The notes beneath the pieces were generated by a model, which saw nothing but the letters and a program-made list of their open reading frames with translations, was not told the DNA's origin and searched no databases. From positions 682,001 through 746,000 of the forward strand of contig CAJQUW010005362.1 of the NCBI GenBank assembly GCA_907163375.1: 64,000 bases of DNA, written 5' to 3'. This document shows, in pieces, positions 2,658 through 50,835 of this stretch. The stretch comes from Prostheceraeus crozeri (taxonomy: Eukaryota > Platyhelminthes > Polycladida > Euryleptidae). Position 1 is the first letter of the stretch. Each line of letters starts with the position of its first letter. The translations under genes were made by a program, and so were the position numbers.

Positions 2658-2786
2658 CCCGTACGAAAATAATTTTGCAATTCATTAATGTTTCATGTAA
2701 TGAACATGTAATGTTTCATTAATGACTAATGAAATTTCACCATTTCATGATAAAGCATTAATGAAAATACTAATGGTTCATTAATG

Positions 2787-3111
2787 AAACATTAATGTAA
2801 GGTTCATTAATGAAAACTGCAATGGTTTCATGTAATGTTTCATTAATGAAACATTAATGTAAAGTTCATTAATGAAAACTGCAATGGTTTCATGTAATGT
2901 TTCATTAATGAAACATTAATGTAAAGTTCATTAATGAAAACTGCCATGATTTCATGTAATGTTTCATTAATGAAACATTAATGTAAAGTTCATTAATGAA
3001 AACTGCCATGATTTCATGTAATGTTTCATTAATGAAACATTAATGCAAAGTTCATTGATGAAAACTCCCATGGTTTCATGTAATGTTTCATTAATGAAAC
3101 ATTAATGTACC
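2787..3111. repeat. 62-bp tandem repeat, about 5 units
   Basis: Units begin with GGTTTCATGTAATG-like sequence at about 2821, 2883, 2945, 3007 and 3069, giving a 62-bp period. Each unit contains the palindrome TTTCATTAATGAAA followed by CATTAATGTAAAG, so each could form a hairpin. Units differ by a few substitutions. Confidence 0.85.
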
Positions 3112-3600: not shown

Positions 3601-4679
3601 AATGCTTTTACTATTATAGTACAGTAGCGTGGCTGCAATTTTGTACCAACTACTACCAACCTACTACCTACTAGCTCAATACCAAAGTAGTCAAAGGTGT
3701 TTTCTTCTGTTTTTCTGTAGCTGGCTTAATGGGAATAGACTCTTACATCAATTGAAAATTACTTTTAAATTGTAAACCTGCTGACAAATAGCAACGTGCA
3801 TTGAAAACATGCATGCATGTAGGCCTACTGCAGTTCACATGCAGACCTACACACCGTATAGTGCACTTAGTTATAGCTGAAGTAATGTGTCATTGGCACA
3901 CAGTATTGTGACAAAATATCATAAATAGAAAACACTATTGCAAAGAATACTAACATTTAATATGATCACTAGAAAAAAATTGTAGTTTCCGGTCGGCCTA
4001 AAATCAAAAATAATTGAACAAAAATATGCAAATTGGGTTACCGAGAATTAATGACCCAATTTTTTTACTTCTACAATAAACTGAAATAAATTCTTAAATG
4101 TATGTAATTGTGATGTATGTGTATGTGATTACATTTGTGCGTGCTAATGTAGGAACATGCACATACATGTAACAGTTGTAGGTTTTCATCCTATCTGATA
4201 TCGAATATCAAATGGATTTTTTGGAAGAAATTCAAATTTCAATTTTAGCTCAAAAGCACTTCGTCACAGCATTTAAACGCATGATCGTCATACCAGTGAT
4301 TTACCAAAAAAGTGTATTAAAAAGGGTTCCGTCTTCTTTTCAGCAACATCAAAGTCGACATTAAGAGACTTGAAAGAACCGGCAACCGAGGAATTGTGAG
4401 AACATTGGACGCATGCTGTCTGTATTTGTAATGGGTAACTCTTTTAGAGACTAGTGGATAGATAGTGTTAGGTAGATAAGCAGATACATGTACTTTGGAA
4501 TAAAAAGTGTCATACAAACTTGATGATGGTATTCTTTTTGTTAATAATGACACATTATATAATGTAGGATCATTCTAGAAATAATTATGGTGCATTGTCG
4601 CAGACCACAAATGAAAGTACCGGGAGCATTAATGAAACATAACTAAGAACATTTATGAAATAGCATTAGGAACAACGTT

Positions 4680-5372
4680 GAAGCAGTACTGGGAACACTA
4701 ATGAAACAGTACTGCGAGAATTAATGAAGCAGCATACTGTGAGAATTAATGAAACAGTACTGGGAACATTAATAAAACAGTCCTGTGAGCATTAATGAAG
4801 CAGTACTGTGAGCATTAATAAAGCAGTACTGTGATCATTAATGAAACAGTACTGGGAACATTAATGAAACAGTACTGTGAGCATTAATGAAACAGTACTG
4901 GAAACATTAATGAAACAGTACTGTGAGCATTAATGAAACAGTACTGGGAACATTAATGAAACAGTACTGTGAGCATTAATGAAGCAGTACTGTGAGCATT
5001 AATGAAACAGTACTGGAAACATTAATGAAACAGTACTGTGAGCATTAATGAAACAGTACTGGGAACATTAATGAAACAGTACTGTGAGCATTAATGAAGC
5101 AGTACTGTGAGCATTAATAAAACAGTACTGTGAGCATTAATGAAACAGTACTGTGAGCATTAATGAAACAGTACTGGAAACATTAATGAAACAGTACTGT
5201 GAGCATTAATGAAACAGTACTGTGAGCATTAATGAAACAGTACTGTGAGCATTAATGAAACAGTACTGTGAGCATTAATGAAACAGTACTGGGAACATTA
5301 ATGAAACAGTACTGGAAACATTAATGAAACAGTACTGGAAACATTAATGAAACAGTACTGGAACATTAATGA
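4680..5372. repeat. 23-bp tandem satellite, about 30 units
   Basis: Unit is ATTAATGAAACAGTACTGTG plus AGC, with common variants GGAAAC and GGGAAC at the unit end. The period is 23 bp with few indels. Degenerate flanking copies extend left to about 4620 and right to about 5530. Units directly abut and have no spacers. Confidence 0.9.
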
Positions 5373-5595
5373 ACCATGCGCATGCTCCATGAAATGTAAA
5401 TGCTAATGAAATGCTAATGGAAATACTAATGAAACATTACATGAAATACTAATGGAAATACTAATGAAACATTAATGAAAATACTAATGAAATGCCTAAA
5501 TTTCCGTAGACAAAACATTAATGTTTCATTAGTGGTTTCATTATACTGTTTCATTATATTTTACATTAATGTTTTCCAAAAATTTTTTGTACGGG

Positions 5596-28434: not shown

Positions 28435-30901
28435 TTACAAATCTAACAGCGTATTAATGGAGCTTGCCCTTTCATTCATGAGAGTGCTAAAGTCAGACTT
28501 CTTTATTATAATTGATTCCAGAAATCTAGGGTATTCAGTACAGGCAATGATATCGAAATTTTCTTTCTTTGGTGGATGTACATGCATCCTTATTTCGGTT
28601 GGTGTTGGATACGCTTTCAAATGTTCGTTGATTCTGGTAGCAAAATGGCGGATAGAGCTGTAACAGCCCACGTAACACTTTTCACAGTGATCACATGTGT
28701 ATTTGTACACAATATTAGACTTTAATTCGGGCACAACTTTATCCTTATTAGAGAAAAAATTGCTAGTTTTCAAGGTTTTAAAAACGGGGCGAACTTTCAT
28801 GTCAGGCGGTAAAAGCTTATTGATGTCTTTGACACGAGAAAGAAGATTTTGTTCACTCTCCGAAATGTAGGGGAAGCTCCATGTTATAAATTTAAAGTCG
28901 TCATGAGCGTTTGGTCGAGCAACGTTGGCTTTGTGTCTTGCCTCAACTTTTTCTCGCATGCGCAAAATAGTTCTTTCAGAAAATCCGTTTTTTTAAAAAG
29001 AGCTTGAATAGCAGAAACGGAGTTTTGATAATTGTTAGGATTGGAATTCAATTTCAAGGCACGATAAAAGAGTGAATTCATAGCAGCCAAGCGATAACGT
29101 TTGGGAGCATAAGCAGAATTAGGGATGTAAATGCCAGTATTTGTTTCTTTGAGGTGCCAAGCGATATAGAAGGCATTCTCACTTTTGGTAACTTTGGTAT
29201 CTAAAAACACAAGACTTCCATTGACTTCTCGCTCCATCGTGAATTTGATATCAGGATGAAGGGTATTCAGAAAGTCATGAAAGGCGGAAGCATCGGAGCT
29301 TTTGTCAAAAATGCAAAATATGTCATCAACGTAACGTTTATAATAGACAGGGAGAGAACCGTTGAAGTTTTTCATGCGCAAGTATCATCATCAACGTAAC
29401 GTTTATAATAGACAGGGAGAGAACCGTTGAAGTTTTTCATGCGAGTTTCTATCATTTCCATGGCAAAAGAGGCCATAGTTGTGGCAAGACACGATCCCAT
29501 AGACATTCCATCGGTCTGCACAAATAGCTTGTCATCAAATGAGAAGAGGATGTTCGTGCAGGCTAGCCTCAAAAGTTCACGAAGGGCCTGCTTTCTGATA
29601 GGGAGCTGATCCTCATTGATGGTGTAAAGGACATGATCAATTGTATCCTCAATAGGAATGCTCGTGAAAAGATTTTTCACATCGTAGCTAATAAGTTGTG
29701 TATTCTCTGAACTTAATCCATTCAGAGAATCCACAAACTCGAAAGTATCTTTGACAGTATGCGTTTTTGGAATGAGAGGTTTGAGAACATTGTCCATCCA
29801 CTTGGCTAATTTGGAAGGATACGAATTGATCATGTTCAAGATCGGACGATAAGGAGGGTCTTCCTTGTTTTTGTGGATTTTAGGAAGCCCGTAAAGTCTC
29901 GCCGGTTGAGAGCCAACCGGTTTGACAGTCTTAAAGATAGCATCAGAAGTTGGGCGCCTCGTTTTCATTTGAGTCAGCTTGCGAATAAATCTATCCTCTT
30001 CGAGGATGAACGGATCCTTCTTTGATCGGGCACAATATGAATATGGTTTGAAACGACTGCTGTCACTGAGCAGAGTGGTCATTTTTTCAACATAAGAACT
30101 GCGTTTGTCAATGACAACGCCATTGCCTTTGTCGAATTTGCTGATGTATAAATGCTTTCTAGAAGATAGGTTTCGAAGAATCTTTAACTTAGATTTCCAA
30201 TATTTGGAAACTTTATGACGAGAGAAATAAGACTTAAAAGTACCTCGAAATTTGTGTTTCAAAGTATTCAAAGTGTCTTCAGTAAGAGAAGAAATGCAAG
30301 CAATCTGACTAAAGACAGCCTCAGCTTCAGCCTTTTCCTGGTCAATGGAAATTCGTTCCCTTGGCCACGACATAGAAAATCCAAGGCTGAGTAATTGAAT
30401 TTCCTCGCTATTGAAGCTATCTTCAGAAAGATTTATCACCGAATGAGATGCTGCATTATCAGTCACATGATCTCTTACGTTATCGGAAATCAATGAAGTC
30501 AACTTTTTTTCGTGAATTCCACGAATAGATTTGCCTAATTTTAGCAAATGGTGCCTCATGATTGTCTGATAAAGGATCCGTTCATCTTCGTTAAAGGACT
30601 GCAAGAAGTTCTGCAACTGTTTTTCTTTTGTTTTGTTATCACTTTTAGCACTTCTTAATTCATCTTTCAAAACTTTAGCTTGTGTCTTTTGAATGAGAGA
30701 CTTACAGTTTTGGAGATTTGCAGGAATCGAAAACTGCAGGAATTTTGGAATCACTTCAGCATCTTTGCACGACTGTAGGAACTCTACGCGGAAGGTTGAT
30801 CGCAGATGTTTTTTCCCAAATGAATTTAGGCCCTCCATCTTCTCATGATTCAAATTTGGCAAGGACTCCTCTTTTTGATATGCAACCGTACCGAGGCGAT
30901 G
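28435..30901 (-). pseudogene. PLE reverse transcriptase plus GIY-YIG protein, frameshifted
   Basis: The N-terminal region is followed by reverse-transcriptase motifs FDKGNGVVIDK, LYGLPKIHKN, RPILNMINSYPSKLAKWM, motif A ISYDVKNLFTSIPI, motif B DGMSMGSCLATTMASF, motif C YKRYVDD and LVFLDTKV. A linker follows, then GIY-YIG: NIVYKYTCDHC, CYVG, RINEHLKAYPT, with Glu in PRFLESIIIKK. Two breaks are seen. A 65-bp tandem duplication at 29324-29443 disrupts the frame exactly at YVDD. A second frame change near 28900-28965 is shared with copy 2. The apparent Met start at 30943 comes from sequence of the other copy across the junction; the true start is not visible. Confidence 0.92.
29324..29443. repeat. 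65-bp-period tandem duplication in PLE
   Basis: A 55-bp segment starting CATCAACGTAACGTTTATAA occurs at 29324-29378 and 29389-29443. The 65-bp shift is not a multiple of three and breaks the reverse transcriptase. The orthologous place in copy 2 (about 31245-31310) is single. Confidence 0.95.
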
Positions 30902-30904
30902 CAA

Positions 30905-32059
30905 TGTTCTCAAACCTCTCATTCCAAAAACGCATACTGTCAAAGATACTTTCGAGTTTGTGGATTCTCTGAATGGATTAAGTTCAGAGAATACACAACT
31001 TATTAGCTACGATGTGAAAAATCTTTTCACGAGCATTCCTATTGAGGATACAATTGATCATGTCCTTTACACCATCAATGAGGATCAGCTCCCTATCAGA
31101 AAGCAGGCCCTTCGTGAACTTTTGAGGCTGGCCTGCACGAACATCCTCTTCTCATTTGATGACAAGCTATTTGTGCAGACCGATGGAATGTCTATGGGAT
31201 CGTGTCTTGCCACAACTATGGCCTCTTTTGCCATGGAAATGATAGAAACTCGCATGAAAAACTTCAACGGTTCTCTCCCTGTCTATTATAAACGTTACGT
31301 TGATGACATATTTTGCATTTTTGACAAAAGCTCCGATGCTTCCGCCTTTCATGACTTTCTGAATACCCTTCATCCTGATATCAAATTCACGATGGAGCGA
31401 GAAGTCAATGGAAGTCTTGTGTTTTTAGATACCAAAGTTACCAAAAGTGAGAATGCCTTCTATATCGCTTGGCACCTCAAAGAAACAAATACTGGCATTT
31501 ACATCCCTAATTCTGCTTATGCTCCCAAACGTTATCGCTTGGCTGCTATGAATTCACTCTTTTATCGTGCCTTGAAATTGAATTCCAATCCTAACAATTA
31601 TCAAAACTCCGTTTCTGCTATTCAAGCTCTTTTTAAAAAAACGGATTTTCTGAAAGAACTATTTTGCGCATACGAGAAAAAGTTGAGGCAAGACACAAAG
31701 CCAATGTTGCTCGACCAAACGCTCATGACGACTTTAAATTTATAACATGGAGCTTCCCCTACATTTCGGAGAGTGAACAAAATCTTCTTTCTCGTGTCAA
31801 AGACATCAATAAGCTTTTACCGCCTGACATGAAAGTTCGCCCCGTTTTTAAAACCTTGAAAACTAGCAATTTTTTCTCTAATAGGGATAAAGTTGTGCCC
31901 GAATTAAAGTCTAATATTGTGTACAAATACACATGTGATCACTGTGAAAAGTGTTACGTGGGCAGCTCTATCCGCCATTTTGCTACCAGAATCAACGAAC
32001 ATTTGAAAGCGTATCCAACACCAACCGAAATAAGGATTTCACCTGAGGATGGCAAATGA
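30905..32059 (+). pseudogene. PLE reverse transcriptase (C-terminal half) and partial GIY-YIG
   Basis: The frame begins at the junction with LKPLIPKTHTVKDTFEFV and includes motif A ISYDVKNLFTSIPI, motif B DGMSMGSCLATTMASF, an intact YVDDIFCIF and LVFLDTKVTK. The frame shifts near 31670-31745, at the same A-rich place as in copy 1. It continues with SFPYISESEQN, VPELKSNIVYKYTCDHC and CYVGSSIRHFATRINEH, then stops after PTEIRISPEDGK. The downstream helix with the catalytic Glu is deleted, so the endonuclease would be inactive. Confidence 0.92.
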
Positions 32060-39670: not shown

Positions 39671-40800
39671 ATGACTGAAAAGAAGACAACATCAATTGAA
39701 ACAATCACTGGACAACCAAAGAGCCCGATGACAACGGAAAAGTGCAAGGCGTGTCATGAAAACCTTGAAGATCTAGAGGTGAACTTAAAGTGTGACAAAT
39801 GTAAAGACTCTTTCCATACTAAAGTATTTGAAACATAATAATAAAAGGAAATTCCAGTGCAAAAATTGTATCAAAAGTTTATATCCTTCAGAATTACAAC
39901 ATATAACAAAGCACACAAAGAACAGAATACATTCAGAGTCAACCACACAGAACACAGAAATCATAGAAGAGAGAAACAAATACCAAAGAAAAAGCGAAGA
40001 TCTCATCAAAATAGCTGGAGCACTCAGGACCGAAATCGAAGAAAGTGCAACGAAAATACAAGCTCTTGAGCAAAACTTAGCACGAAGTGAATGTGAGCTG
40101 ACACTGGCATATGAAAATATTAGAAGACTAGAAAGAGAACTGAACGAAGAACGAAGGATAACCAACTTCAACAACAAATCTGATGACAGTGACGATGATG
40201 AAGAAACAGAACCCGAGGATGAAAACGATTAAATAATGGAAAAATTGTGCAAAATATCAGAAAAAGTGGATCAGATAGGACAACAAAAGCAGATGAATGA
40301 AAAGCAACAACAACAACAACACCAACTGGAAGAACAGCGCCAACTAGAAAAGCTGCGTCAACAAGAACTTCAAGTAGAACATCGTCAACAGAAGATAACC
40401 AACATCGCTGGCAAGCACCACAACAACCAATAAGAAGGAACATTACCTGTTTCTACTGCGGAAGACGTGGTCACCCGATGCGAAACTGTTATCATGCACG
40501 CTGGAATCGACACTATAACGACGGTTATAGTAGAAACAGGCACAACAACTACATCAATGCGAACACAAGACCAAGATACGAACAGCAGCGTAGAAGATAT
40601 GACCAAACTAGATACGAAAATCAAAACAGATACGAGAACCAAAGATATAGAGAAGACAGAAGACGCAATTTTGAAAGAGAACGAAGAGAAAGAGAAGAAG
40701 ATAGATATCGAGTATCCAGAACGGACAACGGAAACGGTCCAATTCAATACACACCAACACGCATCCTCAATCAACAAAACAACAGACATCACTCACAAGC
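39671..40800 (+). pseudogene. LINE ORF1: PHD finger, coiled coil, CCHC knuckle
   Basis: From the ATG at 39671 the frame reads CKACHENLEDLEVNLKCDKC then DSFH, and after a frame change near 39825 KFQCKNC, together a PHD-type zinc finger. A coiled coil follows (EERNKYQRKSEDLIKIAG through about 40230), then an acidic tail and stop. A Gln-rich coil is at 40236-40433. After another frame change comes QAPQQPIRRNITCFYCGRRG then HPMRNC, a CX2CX4HX4C zinc knuckle, and an Arg/Tyr-rich tail ending near 40819. Such proteins bind the retroelement RNA. At least two frameshifts break this copy. PHD-type ORF1 proteins are known in some CR1/L2-like LINEs. Confidence 0.75.
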
Positions 40801-40839
40801 AATACAACCTTATTTTTAGCACATTAAAGGAAGGAGAGG

Positions 40840-43571
40840 ACGATGAACATGATTTTGATAAAATCAGTGACCTCAAAATAAGTTACATAAATGTGAACGG
40901 CTTAAATGAAAATAAAATAAGTAATTCCGATATGATCAAAGATATGGACAATGCTGATATGCTTTGTTTTGTTGAAACGCACTTAAAAGGTGAAGACAAT
41001 CTGCCAGTTATTAGAAATTACACAGGCTATCATTCAATTGGAAGAAAATCTTCAAAATTTGGAAGAAATATCAGATGTATATCACTGTATGTAAAAGAAA
41101 ATATAAAGAATTTAAATCTAGAAAATATTGTCAATGAAAACGGAAGAATATTGATCGTTAAAATAAGGGAACATACATCAAATATTTTCATAATCATATG
41201 CTACAGAAGTAACAGAGAATCTAGATATAAAGACAAAGAATTCTATGAAAATATAAAAAGCTACATACTTCAATACAACATGGAAAATGTAATATTAATA
41301 GTAGATCTAAATGGACGAATTGGATTAGAAAATGATAATAAAAATCTTGGTCTTTCAAACAGAAAATCTGATGATTTAACCCTAAATAGCTATGGACAAG
41401 AAATATTAAGGTTCTGTCATAAAACCAAATTAATAATAGCAAATGGAAGATTTGAAAATAAAGACTCCATTGGAAAATCTACGTATCACTGTATTCAAAA
41501 TGATGAAGTTAAAAAATCAATGATAGATTATTTGATCGTATCCGAGTCCCTTTTGAATAGGCTAAATGAGTTCGAAATTGGTAATCCAGTGTTGTATACT
41601 GACCATTCGCTTCTCAAGATAAAATTGAATATTGCATCAGATAAAAAAATCACTACAAAAAATAAGAAACATCAAAGTAAAAAAATAATTCCGTTTAAAT
41701 GGACAAAAGAAAAAGCCTCAAAATTTGATATAGATAAATTTTGACTTAAAATGTACTGCATTATCAAACAAATTGATTACTCAGAATATGAACGCAAATG
41801 AAATATATACTGAATTACTAGAAATAAGGAATAACTCAACTGATTGCAATTATAAACCTCAGACATCAAAATATTCTGAAAATATTACAAACTTACGGAA
41901 AGTTTATAGAAAGGAGGTTGCCATGTTCAAAGAAGATAAATCAAATAGTAATTTGAATAGATTGAAGTTATTGAGAAAGCAACTGCAAAAGCAAATAAGG
42001 AAAGAAACAAGAAAAATTAAATCTAATCATCTGAATAAATTGATAATTGCAAAAGAAAATAATAATCACAAAGAATATTGGAGCTTAATCAATGGAAAGA
42101 AAAGGACCGCTATTACTTCTACTCTGAATATTAATGATTTCAAAATCGAAATGATAAATTCTGATTTATCTAGACGTTGAGACTTGTATTACCGCAGTAA
42201 ATAATGAAACTTTCAATATGGTAGAACAATCGGATGAAATCCTTAACGTTCAAATTACTATGAATGAGCTCCAAAGTAATTTTAAAGATACAAAGAACTT
42301 AAAATCAAGTGGTCCCGATGAATTTGTAACAGAAATATTTAAAATAAATGACAAAACATTGCCTATACTACTGAATTTATTTAACGAACTCGTGCACAAT
42401 CATAATGAGGTAATCCCATTTTCTGAAAGTTGGGTAATACCTATTCATAAGAGAGGCGACAAAAATATGGTAAAAAGTTATAGGCCAATAAATTTAAGTT
42501 CGAATATAGAAAAATTGCTAACCAAAATAATGAATAATAGACTGGCTAAGTGGATGAAAAAGAATTGTATCATCCATCAATGCCAAACAGGATTTATGAA
42601 GGGAAGCTCTACAATGGATAATATATATATAGTTAAGGAAATGGTGCAACTTTACAAAAACAAAAAATCTCCATTGTGTATGTGTTTCATTGACTTATCA
42701 AAGGCTTTTGATACGGTTCCGAAAAACATTCTTATTCACAAGATTGGCAGTATACTTCCTCATGGCAATTTTCTGCACCTTTTGAAACGACTGATCAACG
42801 AGAAAAGTTTCAAAGTTTTATATGATGGCAATGAATCCTGCAAATTTACTTTGAAAAATGGAATACCCCAAGGCGACAGTTTGTCACCAACGTTATTTTC
42901 AATTTTTATAAATGACTTGTCAAAGGAGATTGATGCTAATCTTGGAAATTTGAATGCAGTGAATATCGGTGAAACTCAAATACCTTTTTTAATTTATGCT
43001 GATGATATACTTCTGATGAGTAACGATATAAACAGTCTAATGAACCAAATACAGATAGTCAATGAATATTGTAAACGCAACAGCCTGGATATGAATTTCG
43101 ATAAAACTAAATTAATTTTTCAAAATATTAGATATGAAAATGATCACATAGAACTTAATTTGAACAATGAATTGAAACGAATTGATATAGTGCGCGAATA
43201 TAAATATCTTGGATTTTGGATAGGAAATAACACTAAAAAACATTTGTCTTCACTAACTAAGAATGGTAATAAATCGGCATATCTAACTGCTAAAAAACTA
43301 AAAGAAATAGGATGTGCGAATGGAACAATAGTGAAAAATACCTTTGAAATGTTGACATTATCAAAAATGCAATATGGTGGTGAATTTTGCTTCTACAATA
43401 AATTATCCGAATTGAATAGGATACAATTTCAATTCTATAAACGTTTATATCATCTGATAACTACCACTGCAAATTATTGTTTGATAGGGGAGTTTGGACT
43501 ATTTCCTCTCGAATATCATTTTGAAAAAGCTGCAATCAACTTATGGATTAAAATTATCTTTAATGAAAGTA
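40840..43571 (+). pseudogene. LINE ORF2: endonuclease and reverse transcriptase (first part)
   Basis: The AP-like endonuclease is seen at 40860-41640: SYINVNGLNENK, CFVETHLKG, ILIVDLNGRIG, STYHC, SMIDYLIVSESLL and TDHSLLKI. The usual GDFN is replaced by VDLN. Frames then change near 41745 and 42180. Reverse-transcriptase motifs follow: SGPDEFVTEIF, WVIPIHKRGDK, YRPINLSSNIEKLLTKIM, GFMKGSSTMDNI, motif A CFIDLSKAFDTV, motif B GIPQGDSLSPTLFSIF and motif C LIYADDILLM. The protein is cut at 43571 by a transposon; the reading resumes at 49537. Frameshifts make it inactive. Confidence 0.9.
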
Positions 43572-43763
43572 CACTCTTTCCCGTTCAAGTTTCCACTCTT
43601 TGCATTGATATTTCCAATATTTGCATAGAAATTTCCAAACTTTGATCTCACAAATCCAAATTTTGCATTCAACTTTCCAATATTTACATTGATATTTCTT
43701 CTCTTTGCGATCAAGAATCTATGATTTGCAGATAGCTTTCCAATATTTGCAATCAAGATTCAA
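43572..43763. repeat. Left 192-bp TIR (also repeated in tandem copies)
   Basis: Inverted partner of 49343-49534. Further copies begin at 45448 and 47324 through the triplication. Confidence 0.93.
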
Positions 43764-44342
43764 TTTTTTTCGATCGTATTAGATCTGAATATTTGACCAT
43801 TCTTTTCGATATTTAACGCAAAGGGATCATGTTATATTTTGTGATCTTCATTAATATAATGAATGTGAGAGATTACCAATTCAATTGTTCAATAATAATG
43901 GTGAATTGATGAAATGCGTGGCTTTACTTACAGCACGACTGTGAGGAGTTATACGTGCAGTAGAACGCCCTAACTTTAGCCAGGCGTCCTAACTTTAGCC
44001 ACCGGTGGTGCATGACTTCAATCTTATTTTTTTCTGATATGATGCATTTACGATGCACCACTACAGCTTGAAATATTCATCTGATACCATAGTACTGCAA
44101 AACTACTCTCTATCTTGTCATATTTCAAGTTATGACTTCATGGCTGAATCTTTTCCAAAATATGCATTTTTGGCAAAAAATTTGAATTTGAAAATGCACC
44201 CCTGAACGGTTTGAAGCCTAGACATGTGGAATCGGTTGAAACGTCAAAACGTTGCTCATGCACTGTTCATGCACAAATTCAAAGTCGATATATCAATAGC
44301 TAGACTAGTCTAATACCTATTCATAAGAGAGGCGACAAAAAT

Positions 44343-45521
44343 ATGGTAAAAAGTTATAGGCCAATAAATTTAAGTTCGAATATAGAAAAATTGCTAACCA
44401 AAATAATGAATAATAGACTGGCTAAGTGGTTGAAAAAGAATTGTATCATCCATCAATGCCAAACAGGATTTATGAAGGGAAGCTCTACAATGGATAATAT
44501 ATATATAGTTATGGAAATGGTGCAACTTTACAAAAACAAAAAATCTCCATTGTGTATGTGTTTCATTGACTTATCAAAGGCTTTTGATACGGTTCCGAAA
44601 AACATTCTTATTCACAAGATTGGCAGTATACTTCCTCATGGCAATTTTCTGCACCTTTTGAAACGACTGATCAACGAGAAAAGTTTCAAAGTTTTATATG
44701 ATGGCAATGAATCCTGCAAATTTACTTTGAAAAATGGAATACCCCATGGCGACAGTTTGTCACCAACGTTATTTTCAATTTTTATAAATGACTTGTCAAA
44801 GGAGATTGATGCTAATCTTGGAAATTTGAATGCAGTGAATATCGGTGAAACTCAAATACCTTTTTTAATTTATGCTGATGATATACTTCTGATGAGTAAC
44901 GATATAAACAGTCTAATGAACCAAATACAGATAGTCAATGAATATTGTAAACGCAACAGCCTGGATATGAATTTCGATAAAACTAAATTAATTTTTCAAA
45001 ATATTAGATATGAAAATGATCACATAGAACTTAATTTGAACAATGAATTGAAACGAATTGATATAGTGCGCGAATATAAATATCTTGGATTTTGGATAGG
45101 AAATAACACTAAAAAACATTTGTCTTCACTAACTAAGAATGGTAATAAATCGGCATATCTAACTGCTAAAAAACTAAAAGAAATAGGATGTGCGAATGGA
45201 ACAATAGTGAAAAATACCTTTGAAATGTTGACATTATCAAAAATGCAATATGGTGGTGAATTTTGCTTCTACAATAAATTATCCGAATTGAATAGGATAC
45301 AATTTCAATTCTATAAACGTTTATATCATCTGATAACTACCACTGCAAATTATTGTTTGATAGGGGAGTTTGGACTATTTCCTCTCGAATATCATTTTGA
45401 AAAAGCTGCAATCAACTTATGGATTAAAATTATCTTTAATGAAAGTACACTCTTTCCCGTTCAAGTTTCCACTCTTTGCATTGATATTTCCAATATTTGC
45501 ATAGAAATTTCCAAACTTTGA
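44343..45521 (+). pseudogene. Duplicated LINE reverse-transcriptase fragment (copy 2)
   Basis: A 392-codon open frame starting MVKSYRPINLSS, identical to copy 1 except M for K in IYIVMEMVQ, L for M in AKWLKK, and H for Q in motif B (GIPHGDSLSPT). It keeps YADD. It has no endonuclease, promoter or LINE start, and its 3' end runs into transposon TIR, so it is a by-product of the tandem duplication rather than a gene. Confidence 0.9.
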
Positions 45522-46218
45522 TCTCACAAATCCAAATTTTGCATTCAACTTTCCAATATTTACATTGATATTTCTTCTCTTTGCGATCAAGAATCTATGA
45601 TTTGCAGATAGCTTTCCAATATTTGCAATCAAGATTCAAATTTTTTCGATCGTATTAGATCTGAATATTTGACCATTCTTTTCGATATTTAACGCAAAGG
45701 GATCATGTTATATTTTGTGATCTTCATTAATATAATGAATGTGAGAGATTACCAATTCAATTGTTCAATAATAATGGTGAATTGATGAAATGCGTGGCTT
45801 TACTTACAGCACGACTGTGAGGAGTTATACGTGCAGTAGAACGCCCTAACTTTAGCCAGGCGTCCTAACTTTAGCCACCGGTGGTGCATGACTTCAATCT
45901 TATTTTTTTCTGATATGATGCATTTACGATGCACCACTACAGCTTGAAATATTCATCTGATACCATAGTACTGCAAAACTACTCTCTATCTTGTCATATT
46001 TCAAGTTATGACTTCATGGCTGAATCTTTTCCAAAATATGCATTTTTGGCAAAAAATTTGAATTTGAAAATGCACCCCTGAACGGTTTGAAGCCTAGACA
46101 TGTGGAATCGGTTGAAACGTCAAAACGTTGCTCATGCACTGTTCATGCACAAATTCAAAGTCGATATATCAATAGCTAGACTAGTCTAATACCTATTCAT
46201 AAGAGAGGCGACAAAAAT

Positions 46219-47397
46219 ATGGTAAAAAGTTATAGGCCAATAAATTTAAGTTCGAATATAGAAAAATTGCTAACCAAAATAATGAATAATAGACTGGCTA
46301 AGTGGTTGAAAAAGAATTGTATCATCCATCAATGCCAAACAGGATTTATGAAGGGAAGCTCTACAATGGATAATATATATATAGTTATGGAAATGGTGCA
46401 ACTTTACAAAAACAAAAAATCTCCATTGTGTATGTGTTTCATTGACTTATCAAAGGCTTTTGATACGGTTCCGAAAAACATTCTTATTCACAAGATTGGC
46501 AGTATACTTCCTCATGGCAATTTTCTGCACCTTTTGAAACGACTGATCAACGAGAAAAGTTTCAAAGTTTTATATGATGGCAATGAATCCTGCAAATTTA
46601 CTTTGAAAAATGGAATACCCCAAGGCGACAGTTTGTCACCAACGTTATTTTCAATTTTTATAAATGACTTGTCAAAGGAGATTGATGCTAATCTTGGAAA
46701 TTTGAATGCAGTGAATATCGGTGAAACTCAAATACCTTTTTTAATTTATGCTGATGATATACTTCTGATGAGTAACGATATAAACAGTCTAATGAACCAA
46801 ATACAGATAGTCAATGAATATTGTAAACGCAACAGCCTGGATATGAATTTCGATAAAACTAAATTAATTTTTCAAAATATTAGATATGAAAATGATCACA
46901 TAGAACTTAATTTGAACAATGAATTGAAACGAATTGATATAGTGCGCGAATATAAATATCTTGGATTTTGGATAGGAAATAACACTAAAAAACATTTGTC
47001 TTCACTAACTAAGAATGGTAATAAATCGGCATATCTAACTGCTAAAAAACTAAAAGAAATAGGATGTGCGAATGGAACAATAGTGAAAAATACCTTTGAA
47101 ATGTTGACATTATCAAAAATGCAATATGGTGGTGAATTTTGCTTCTACAATAAATTATCCGAATTGAATAGGATACAATTTCAATTCTATAAACGTTTAT
47201 ATCATCTGATAACTACCACTGCAAATTATTGTTTGATAGGGGAGTTTGGACTATTTCCTCTCGAATATCATTTTGAAAAAGCTGCAATCAACTTATGGAT
47301 TAAAATTATCTTTAATGAAAGTACACTCTTTCCCGTTCAAGTTTCCACTCTTTGCATTGATATTTCCAATATTTGCATAGAAATTTCCAAACTTTGA
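46219..47397 (+). pseudogene. Duplicated LINE reverse-transcriptase fragment (copy 3)
   Basis: Same 392-codon frame as copy 2, with the same IYIVMEM and AKWLKK changes but the ancestral GIPQGDSLSPT motif B. The last residues (PVQVSTLCIDIS onward) are read from the transposon TIR. No independent start or regulatory signal is seen. Confidence 0.9.
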
Positions 47398-48414
47398 TCT
47401 CACAAATCCAAATTTTGCATTCAACTTTCCAATATTTACATTGATATTTCTTCTCTTTGCGATCAAGAATCTATGATTTGCAGATAGCTTTCCAATATTT
47501 GCAATCAAGATTCAATTTTTTTCGATCGTATTAGATCTGAATATTTGACCATTCTTTTCGATATTTAACGCAAAGGGATCATGTTATATTTTGTGATCTT
47601 CATTAATATAATGAATGTGAGAGATTACCAATTCAATTGTTCAATAATAATGGTGAATTGATGAAATGCGTGGCTTTACTTACAGCACGACTGTGAGGAG
47701 TTATACGTGCAGTAGAACGCCCTAACTTTAGCCAGGCGTCCTAACTTTAGCCACCGGTGGTGCATGACTTCAATCTTATTTTTTTCTAATATGATGCATT
47801 TACGATGCACCACTACAGCTTGAAATATTCATCTGATACCATAGTACTGCAAAACTACTCTCTATCTTGTCATATTTCAAGTTATGACTTCATGGCTGAA
47901 TCTTTTCCAAAATATGCATTTTTGGCAAAAAATTTGAATTTGAAAATGCACCCCTGAACGGTTTGAAGCCTAGACATGTGGAATCGGTTGAAACGTCAAA
48001 ACGTTGCTCATGCACTGTTCATGCACAAATTCAAAGTCGATATATCAATAGCTAGACTTCATTGTACACTGTACATTCAACTTGTACATGTACCGATGTC
48101 AGCTTGACCGGTATATCTAATTACACGCATAAAAAAATGCTATTCTATACTGTTTCCCCAACTTTGCTCACGTTTTGATTCTGAAGAATTGAATTGCTGT
48201 CATAACGGCAAAGTTGAGTTACCTGAATTGGGAGAGTATCCGGAAGAATTGAAGGAATTACTAATTGGCGTTGATGTATTGAGTCACAATTTTCAAAACA
48301 ATATTCGACGTTATAATTCTCTTTTTGCATTTGCGTCAATGGGATGTCAATTTTGCTGCGAAATCGAAAGGAACTTTGCTGCGAGCAGTTTCCTTTACAT
48401 TTATAATTTGACTG

Positions 48415-49274
48415 TTAATCGGCGGTGATGCTTAATTTCTTTTTGATCATGGACTTCAGTAAAGAAAATGCTTCTTCTATGGGGTTCAACATAGGAGACC
48501 ATGGCGGCAAATGTTTCAAGATATGGTGATCTCTAGAAGAAGACGAATTCCGATGACATGGTACATTATCAAAGATGATGTAAGTCTTTTCACGTGGAGA
48601 ATCATCTTCAAGCTTCTGGCTCAAGTCGTTGATAAAATTCTGAAAAGTTTCTCGAGTGACACTACCAATGTGTTCGCGGTGCATTATCAAACCACCATTG
48701 GAGCTCACGGCCATTATGATGTTGACATTATGGCCACGCTGTCCACCAACAATCCGAAAACACTGTAAACCCGTGATGGGGTTCGTGATGTCCACAAATT
48801 AAAGTTGGTTTCATCGACATACACACATTTGTGATAATTTGCCTCATCGAGAAACCAAGTAGCGTATTCCTTTCGGGCTCTTATGACATCAGGCTTATTC
48901 CTATCCGTGGGTAAGTTGCGAACATTTTTTACGGTGTACAACATGCCGTCCAGTGTTCTTGATATTGTACTTAAACTCAAAGAAGGTTTTTGAGGCAAAT
49001 CTGACTGCAAGCCTTCTTGCATTTGCTGCAAGGTTGAAGACGGATTATTGGAAATCATTTGTTCCAAATAGGTTTTGACTTCGTCATCGACCTTGTGGTG
49101 TGTCTTGCCACCTTGCTTACTTTTTGTCACACGACCAGATTTTATAATCTTTCTGGCAGTGTCATGTTTTATTCCTAAAGATTCTGCAACTGTCAGGAAA
49201 TCACCGTCGGCGTTATACGAATCAAATATTCTTTTTCTATCCTGGTTGCTAATTCTATTGTAAGTACGTGTCAT
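48415..49274 (-). pseudogene. Tc1/IS630-type transposase of the nested element
   Basis: Starts MTRTYNRISNQDRKRIFDSY, with helix-turn-helix segments GDFLTVAESLGIKHDTARKI and a LSLSTISRTLDGM region. The first catalytic Asp is in CVYVDETNFNLW. The frame shifts near 48800, then continues IVGGQRGHNVNIIMAVSSN, the second Asp in YIIFDNVPCHRN, and the Glu in LPPWSPMLNPIEEAFSLL. About 30 residues separate the second Asp from this Glu, short of DD34E, so either a small deletion or an unusual family. It ends at KKKLSITAD or continues in a decayed tail to about 48145. Confidence 0.85.
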
Positions 49275-49342
49275 ACTGCTTCAATTTTGATAAAATGAAC
49301 ATCTTTTGCCAGTAAGTTGAATATTCGTATAGACTTTAAAAT

Positions 49343-49534
49343 TTGAATCTTGATTGCAAATATTGGAAAGCTATCTGCAAATCATAGATTCTTGATCGCA
49401 AAGAGAAGAAATATCAATGCAAATATTGGAAAGTTGAATGCAAAATTTGGATTTGTGAGATCAAAGTTTGGAAATTTCTATGCAAATATTGGAAATATCA
49501 ATGCAAAGAGTGGAAACTTGAACGGGAAAGAGTG
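49343..49534. repeat. Right 192-bp TIR of nested transposon
   Basis: Reverse complement of 43572-43763, ending GGGAAAGAGTG before the TA duplicate. Confidence 0.93.
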
Positions 49535-49536
49535 TA

Positions 49537-50179
49537 GTAGCATCATGAAAAGATGCTATAATCATGTTTCAAATAATTTAGACAATAGCAATTATTCATA
49601 TACATGGTGCTGGAGAATAAAGCATCTTTTAAAGCAAATTAATTTATCACATCTTTGGTTAGATCAAGACAGTTAGAGATAAATAAGCGCAAATGTAAAA
49701 TTATAGTAAAAACGAGACTAATGGAGCATTTTAGAGCCATTTGGATAAATGATACCAAGAAAAGTAGAACCGGAATAGACTACTTGGAGTCAAGTAAATT
49801 CGATTGCAGCATGAAAAGTTATTTGACTCTGAATCTAAAACTAAATATTATAGCACATTTGTTGAAATTGTGATGTAGGAATCATGACCTAGCAGTTAAA
49901 ACTGGATGTTATAGAAATCGATTGAGCTATGACGAAAGATTGTGCAGTTTATGCGATGATAGAACAGTTGAAACTGTATACCATTTCATTTGTAAATGTG
50001 CATTGTACAATGATATCAGGCTGCACTTCACACCATTCTTTGTAGATATCTCGAAGCAAGATTTCTATGTAATGCTAGAAACTTTGGAAATAGGTAAAAT
50101 TGTAACATTAACCAAATACATAAACAGTGCAAATAGCATCAGAGCAGATAAATTGCGTCAGCGACCAATGACATCGTGA
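49537..50179 (+). pseudogene. LINE ORF2 C-terminus resuming after the transposon
   Basis: Directly after the transposon, a frame reads SIMKRCYNHVSNNL then YTWCWRIKHLLKQ. After frame changes it continues INKRKCKIIVKTRLMEHF and finally LSYDERLCSLCDDRTVET then YHFICKCALYND. The last is the CX2C-H-X3-C knuckle found at the end of many ORF2 proteins, followed by a short tail to 50179. Rejoining position 43571 to 49537 keeps the frame, supporting one interrupted gene. Confidence 0.85.
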
Positions 50180-50239
50180 TAAGTATTCAGATGTATTAAA
50201 GGTTTTGATAGCGCAACATATCGTTCAATGCGAATTAAA

Positions 50240-50306
50240 GACGAAAAACCGAGGTCCGGAACGTATCTAACAACTTCACGTTTCTCATTAATCGATTCTA
50301 TTACAG
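50240..50306 (+). repeat. 67-bp direct repeat, right copy, at LINE 3' end
   Basis: Matches 39602-39668 with two mismatches. Here TTCTATTACAG is followed by GTAAG, a splice-donor-like sequence; on the left it is followed by the ORF1 start. Confidence 0.9.
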
Positions 50307-50763
50307 GTAAGATGATGCGAATTACTGAATTTTCTAATGATCACAATATGATATTCTTGTTTCATGCATGTATATCACCTATCGTTCCGGACCTCTTAAT
50401 AAGTAGGACTTAATAATTAGACAAGACGAATGCTGGCGTGCGTTATTAATTTTGAATACATATTCCGATCTGCTCTGATATGCCGTTTTTATCAAACCTT
50501 AACATTTTTCATTGCAAAAGTATGATGATGCATAACTTTAAAAGATGAAATCATGACTTGCTTAGACATATTAAATATGAATGAAAATGTCCTCTCCTTC
50601 CAGACAGTGTCATCTCGTATTTCAGTGTCATTACTTAATCTCACCTCCATTTTATTATCATTCTGTAAATTTCTCAATCGCCTTGTCATCAATCATCTCA
50701 TTCATTCTCTTTTGTATACATATACGTGTTTTTCAATTGAAAAAATAAACGTTCTGATATTCT

Positions 50764-50835
50764 GGTGTCTTGTATTGACTTAATAGCTGTCATTCTCTTT
50801 CGATATTCAATGAACTACGACAGACTTTGTTGTCA
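50764..50835 (+). repeat. Copy of the repeat flanking the SINE
   Basis: Contains CTTGTATTGACTTAATAGCT and TTCGATATTCAA, matching 39338-39400. It shows that the LINE is bracketed by copies of one older repeat. Confidence 0.8.

Follow-up and report, generated by a model that had tools for sequence, protein, structure and literature searches.

How did three almost identical copies of one chimaeric segment, part LINE (long interspersed nuclear element) and part DNA transposon, come to lie head to tail in the genome of the polyclad flatworm Prostheceraeus crozeri? We analysed a stretch of 64,000 nucleotides, called here the window, from the forward strand of contig CAJQUW010005362.1 (positions 682,001 to 746,000; GenBank assembly GCA_907163375.1). 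The array occupies positions 42435 to 48058 of the window, to which all coordinates below refer unless another contig is named. With moderate confidence, we interpret it as a recent and real tandem amplification of inert mobile-element DNA, which would have started with theta-type end joining and continued by unequal exchange. No function is expected for the array, and there is no evidence of one.

An exact three-copy array with a new linker

A preliminary description of this DNA had proposed a triplication of a 1,876-bp unit at 42435..48058. Comparison of the window with itself confirmed it to the base: the offset of 1,876 gave a single matching run, from 42435 to 48058 exactly, and the offsets of 1,875 and 1,877 gave none. 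The similarity among the copies stops at both edges of the array, with none past 42435 or 48058. The copies are also nearly identical, as had been claimed. Shifted by one unit, the array matches itself at 99.81% identity over 3,748 bp (BLAST), and the copies differ at five sites; a chance origin of this match is excluded.

The duplicated segment proper is 1,872 bp long (42435-44306) and is found in the assembly sequence as three head-to-tail copies. A new linker of 4 nt, AGTC, is present at both internal junctions (44307-44310 and 46183-46186) and only there. The period is 1,876 because it adds this linker to the segment, and copy 3 is shorter by 4 nt because the linker lies outside the duplicated 1,872 bp. 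The array is made up as follows.

42435..44310, + strand: copy 1, consisting of a LINE reverse-transcriptase segment (42435-43569), TA (43570-43571), the left part of the transposon to 44306 and the linker (44307-44310)
44311..46186, + strand: copy 2, with the linker AGTC at 46183-46186
46187..48058, + strand: copy 3, 1,872 bp without linker, running seamlessly into the remaining transposon
44301..44312, no strand: first internal junction, TAGACT/AGTC/TA, a perfect 12-nt palindrome
46177-46188, no strand: second internal junction, with the same TAGACT/AGTC/TA sequence

The junction 18-mer (TAGACT/AGTC/TAATACC) occurs twice in the 2.05-Gb assembly of 14,165 contigs, both times within the array, and a control pattern, the same 18-mer reversed, does not occur in it. 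The array sits inside a contig of 880 kb. Its left edge (GTTGGG/TAATACC) is ordinary LINE sequence in the LINE copies that we fetched, one of which (L027) has single-base differences there. Across its right edge, TAGACT/TCATTG is found as ordinary element sequence in each of the three long forms of the transposon that were read (on C9084, C2439 and C12012). The outer edges are thus continuous ancestral sequence, the internal junctions alone being new. No homology was detected between the two boundaries, whose upstream and downstream flanks match no better than chance over the ~50 bases printed of each, and no BLAST hit links the two edges of the array.

Insertion of the transposon and order of events

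The LINE and the transposon nested in it have the following parts.

40301..43569, + strand: left part of the LINE, with a zinc-knuckle-like motif (by eye), an endonuclease match (E 0.27 only) and the reverse transcriptase
49537..50764, + strand: right part of the same LINE, which resumes past the transposon
43570..43571 (left) and 49535-49536 (right), no strand: TA target duplication, the empty site of which is seen in LINE copies elsewhere
43572..43768, + strand: left terminal inverted repeat in copy 1, 197 bp, with further copies at 45448-45644 and 47324-47520
49338..49534, - strand: right terminal inverted repeat, 197 bp
48415..49280, - strand: decayed DDE_3-type transposase, in two overlapping frames of different phase (48714-49280 and 48415-48798)

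In each unit, accordingly, LINE reverse-transcriptase sequence runs into the left end of a nested DNA transposon, in agreement with the preliminary description. The reverse transcriptase matches RVT_1 (E 5.4e-39) in an open frame running through copy 1, and its best solved relatives are LINE-1 ORF2 and R2. The transposase matches DDE_3 (E 4.7e-16). Its N-terminal part gave helix-turn-helix matches only, all below the Pfam cut-offs, and a single match in a PDB search (E 0.29). With a TA target duplication, terminal inverted repeats and a DDE transposase all present, the element belongs to the Tc1/mariner superfamily; copy 3 and the sequence to its right make up the complete element without interruption. 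Rfam (gathering scores) and tRNA searches of the window returned no matches, and a 23-mer of the inverted repeat had none in prokaryote genomes. Pattern matches among viral contigs, four for the transposase and one for the LINE reverse transcriptase, were not confirmed as relatives.

A query with the unit gave 1,445 candidates, 40 of which were scored; these comprised the three array copies and many LINE copies, and 27 of the latter were fetched (L004-L030). The LINE match ends at 50764 or at most 6 bases away in 23 of these 27 copies, which marks the 3' end of the LINE. The insertion site is empty, with a single TA, in 26 of them, including two with small adjacent changes (L017 and L021), and the remaining copy (L029) diverges before the site. 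Since the unit contains the edge of the element and the LINE copies show the empty site, the element entered the LINE first and the tandem amplification followed, which is the order given in the preliminary description.

Two pairs of ~75-bp direct repeats flank the LINE, at 39330-39404/50763-50836 (92%) and 39601-39674/50239-50315 (93.5%). In the second pair the right-hand repeat is internal to the LINE, and in the first it starts at the common 3' end of the LINE.

Differences among the copies and age of the array

The five variable unit positions, with their states in copies 1, 2 and 3, are 120 (A, T, T), 202 (A, T, T), 437 (A, T, A), 1330 (T, A, T) and 1602 (G, G, A). All 27 LINE outgroups have T at 120, A at 202 and A at 437, so that A at 120 is private to copy 1, T at 202 is shared-derived in copies 2 and 3, and T at 437 is private to copy 2. 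For the transposon part, the three long forms all have G at 1602, making A private to copy 3, and A at 1330, where copies 1 and 3 have T at the edge of an A/T run (homopolymer). A motif count for this last site in loci L031-L064, whose total of 53 includes overlapping loci and copy 2 itself, found the A state 50 times and the T state three times, twice from the array and once in L043. T at 1330 looks derived in copies 1 and 3, in conflict with the grouping by site 202.

It had been argued that the array grew stepwise because copies 2 and 3 have changes in common that copy 1 lacks. Site 202 is such a shared-derived change, but the difference at 120 is private to copy 1 and site 1330 conflicts. 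Because any two-state site among three copies is a singleton, sharing is not a sufficient argument by itself; stepwise growth is nonetheless supported, mainly by the identical 4-nt linker at both junctions.

Four positions of the LINE part (209, 210, 553 and 1013) are changed in all three copies and unchanged in the 27 others, except that one of these shares the state at 553. These changes predate the amplification, after which about five or six more arose over the three 1,872-bp copies. From the counts of changes before and after amplification, the LINE copy is roughly four times as old as the array, with a wide error.

A/T transversions account for four of the five sites (120, 202, 437 and 1330), compared with 14 of the 53 differences counted between the members of eight other local repeat pairs (site 1330 included). 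We dropped this skew as evidence, as the sample is too small.

Scars in the element and its relatives

The nested element carries two further scars of a repair-like kind, which we count in support of a repair-based origin of the array.

44268..44272, no strand: scar of a ~201-bp deletion, in all three units and absent from the three long-form relatives read
48165..48377, no strand: 213-bp foreign filler, replacing ~1.4 kb of the long-form element

Given these scars, the element copy was probably broken and repaired more than once, in the manner described for gap-filling at class II elements (PMC8277862). At the deletion scar, TCATGCAC is present twice, 11 nt apart (by eye). Also by eye, in the alignment with the long forms, the lost piece carried a long inverted repeat; because the deletion is in all three copies, this repeat was most likely lost before the duplication.

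The best relative of the filler is on C6434 (96%), and 25 places on C998 match it at 87-89%. It is a captured piece at an internal deletion, 87-88% like the units of a tandem array on C998 (157954-191015; L067, L068 and L069). That array has 12 full places with 13 shorter ones between and beside them, and a period of ~2,722 bp with one interval of 3,045. Its sampled neighbours are 99.5% alike, and its end units are ~96.7-98.3% like the middle ones. It carries a fragment whose peptide we read as Helitron-like; the window version had no Pfam match.

In long-form copies of the transposon (L031, L063 and L064), ~1.3 kb is inserted at element position ~388, corresponding to 43957 onward in copy 1. 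The insertion contains several CTAACTTTAGCC-type inverted repeats and seems to have spread along with the element. With 40 of 191 candidates scored, a transposon query placed copies on at least 38 contigs including that of the array, hence on at least 37 others, at 92-98%.

By self-comparison for direct repeats of at least 100 bp at E 1e-20, we screened 29 other element loci (L034-L062), which extended at most 1.5 kb into the flanks and did not reach the left ends of several long forms. No comparable tandem duplication was found in them, nor in the 27 LINE loci. Lesser repeats were seen at the inverted repeat in L049 (122 bp) and in the flanks in L037, L047 and L053.

A proposed route from one end-joining event to three copies

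In the scenario that we favour, the Tc1/mariner-type element having inserted at a TA within the LINE, a single end-joining event would later have connected 44306 to 42435, adding AGTC. The likeliest route to this junction would be synthesis-dependent strand annealing that failed: the break ends, extended by copying the sister chromatid, would overshoot and be joined by polymerase theta, and the product, predicted to depend on this polymerase, would be a duplication of the copied stretch. Unequal homologous exchange between the 1.9-kb copies would then have raised their number from two to three. One end-joining event would be enough, because the two junctions do not differ, even in the linker, and the assembly has the 18-mer at no other place; we reject two independent duplications because the linker is the same both times. 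The first duplication would have been non-homologous because its edges lack homology. The preliminary description had left the mechanism as crossing-over, slippage or rolling amplification, and this list can be shortened for the first duplication: we reject slippage and simple, homologous unequal crossing-over as a first step, since the linker and the edges without homology argue against them.

Theta-mediated joining in helq-1 mutants of C. elegans yields tandem duplications of 0.1-10 kb, with a median of ~1 kb, and its hallmarks at such duplications are microhomology and occasional templated insertions (PMC8654963). In the array, the linker and the TA that follows it, which belongs to the acceptor end, together read AGTCTA, the reverse complement of the six bases that immediately precede the linker. 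A single crossover predicts a middle copy whose left side is like copy 3 and whose right side is like copy 1, and sites 202 (2=3) and 1602 (1=2) fit this prediction.

Several points weigh against this scenario. Site 1330, where copies 1 and 3 have the derived state, is at odds with one crossover and would call for recurrence or conversion from the right inverted repeat; its T state is also present in L043, so that the array is not the only place in the family to have it. Since sites 120 and 1602 are singletons and may simply have changed later in one copy each, the mosaic pattern has little to rest on. Templating of the linker is statistically weak: when 4-nt linkers are drawn at random, 8.3% produce a 6-nt match no more than 20 nt away from the retained ends, or 14.6% when the lost sides are included, and 0.3% equal the reverse complement of the terminal four bases, this last test having been picked post hoc. 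A hairpin-opened end is an equally possible source of the palindromic linker. Finally, the two scars lie ~35 and ~106 bp from the right edge of the unit in a 2.2-kb element, by rough reckoning no significant cluster.

The break itself could have been at either edge of the unit or at an excision site within it. In the latter case, the transposon would have been excised on one chromatid, both broken ends would have copied the sister, the left one into the element to 44306 and the right one through the element into the LINE to 42435, and the joining of these overlapping ends would have left a duplication straddling the left edge of the element. The required excision site does lie within the unit, and the 92-98% identity of the copies on other contigs indicates that the family was active not very long ago. 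Class II elements are tied to gap-filling duplications in animals (PMC8277862), and one was considered a possible source of the break at a tandem duplication of D. simulans (PMC3276153). We nevertheless regard excision as unlikely. A break at either unit edge accounts for the structure equally, and where mobile elements abound a duplication of 1.9 kb is expected to take in the edge of one often, simply by chance. No comparable duplication was seen at the 29 other family loci fetched, with at most 1.5 kb of flank, and PMC8277862 found the single-copy cases in animals to be mostly transposition-independent. The wider proposal that cut-and-paste transposons seed arrays of their own edge and host flank, through excision, overshooting sister-templated repair and end joining, is in our view quite unlikely to hold. 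Identical junctions in the same layout would also result from an extrachromosomal circle of the 1,872-bp segment, closed at AGTC, if it returned by homology in one step as a dimer, in two separate steps, or through rolling-circle copies; PMC9659126 cites a rolling-circle origin for Bari1, a Tc1/mariner cluster of D. melanogaster. A circle is very unlikely here, as more steps are needed, no sequence feature demands a circle and no copy of the junction is found elsewhere in the assembly.

For the first duplication, we also considered template switching during replication at the centre of the element, akin to fork stalling and template switching or microhomology-mediated break-induced replication (FoSTeS/MMBIR), and judged it very improbable. 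The right edge is mildly structured (z -2.07; 5 of 200 shuffles as stable) and is ~35 bp from the ~201-bp deletion scar, but the left edge is without structure (z 0.09; 98 of 200 shuffles as stable), and the inverted repeat in the deleted piece had most likely gone before the duplication. End joining is the more typical source of a short junction insertion that lacks longer microhomology. That the assembler merely repeated one unit is extremely unlikely. The copy number of three is that of the assembly sequence, and some of the five differences, such as that at 1330 next to an A/T run, could be consensus errors; however, overlap errors do not make a novel 4-nt linker at both junctions, and the five differing sites and the position of the array inside an 880-kb contig also speak against an artefact.

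Other readings were rejected on structural grounds. Alternative transposition is ruled out because the unit edges differ from the element ends, and a tandem insertion of several element copies because every unit has the same LINE flank. We do not class the array as satellite DNA, as it has three copies and its junction 18-mer is found at one locus only.

Other repeats in the window

Two near-identical fragments (98.4-99.8%), at 28586-29792 and 30902-32037, lie head to head in inverted orientation. They contain reverse-transcriptase-like frames and a GIY-YIG match (E 0.0025, below the Pfam cut-off), and we take them, by our own reading, to be Penelope-like. Short-period tandem arrays are found at 2771-3109 (62-bp period, 96% matches) and 4679-5493 (23-bp period, ~30 copies).

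Relation to known systems and significance

Tandem repeats made from parts of mobile elements are well known, from CRM1TR and CRM4TR (PMC3648361) to Bari1 and many satellites (PMC9659126). We found no paper naming this locus, which is no proof of absence. The theta-joined products of failed synthesis-dependent strand annealing in C. elegans helq-1 mutants are likewise head-to-tail, end-joined duplications of 0.1-10 kb, with an occasional templated insertion, as the linker may be, but they belong to a mutant background and are seldom seen in the wild type (PMC8654963), whereas the present array is in a natural genome, has three copies and would have grown by homology. The maize CRM1TR and CRM4TR units (~0.7-1.4 kb) are also built from parts of mobile elements and are ascribed to illegitimate recombination followed by growth through homologous repair; these arrays, however, are large, (peri)centromeric and derived from long terminal repeat elements, in contrast with three copies of a LINE and class II chimaera (PMC3648361). 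Similarly, Bari1 is a Tc1/mariner element amplified in tandem within a retroelement, Stalker, in D. melanogaster, but its cluster has 80 repeats attributed to rolling circles, and the unit described here is a partial element with LINE flank (PMC9659126). Pack-TIRs and gap-filling duplications in animals involve repair at an element with terminal inverted repeats and foreign filler, comparable to the 213-bp filler; in Pack-TIRs, the captured sequence lies inside the element, whereas here the edge of the element and its flank are duplicated in tandem (PMC8277862).

The array is thus a young addition to a known process, ordinary in kind and unusually well polarised. It has been caught at three copies, and with the help of its relatives within the genome the steps that preceded this state can be read, from LINE through insertion and scars to duplication and growth. 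No general view is changed by this array alone; such cases show the beginnings of kilobase tandem arrays. The array on C998, related to the filler and with a period of ~2.72 kb, may show what an older array of the same sort looks like. If true, the excision reading would provide a direct route from class II transposition to new satellite-like arrays.

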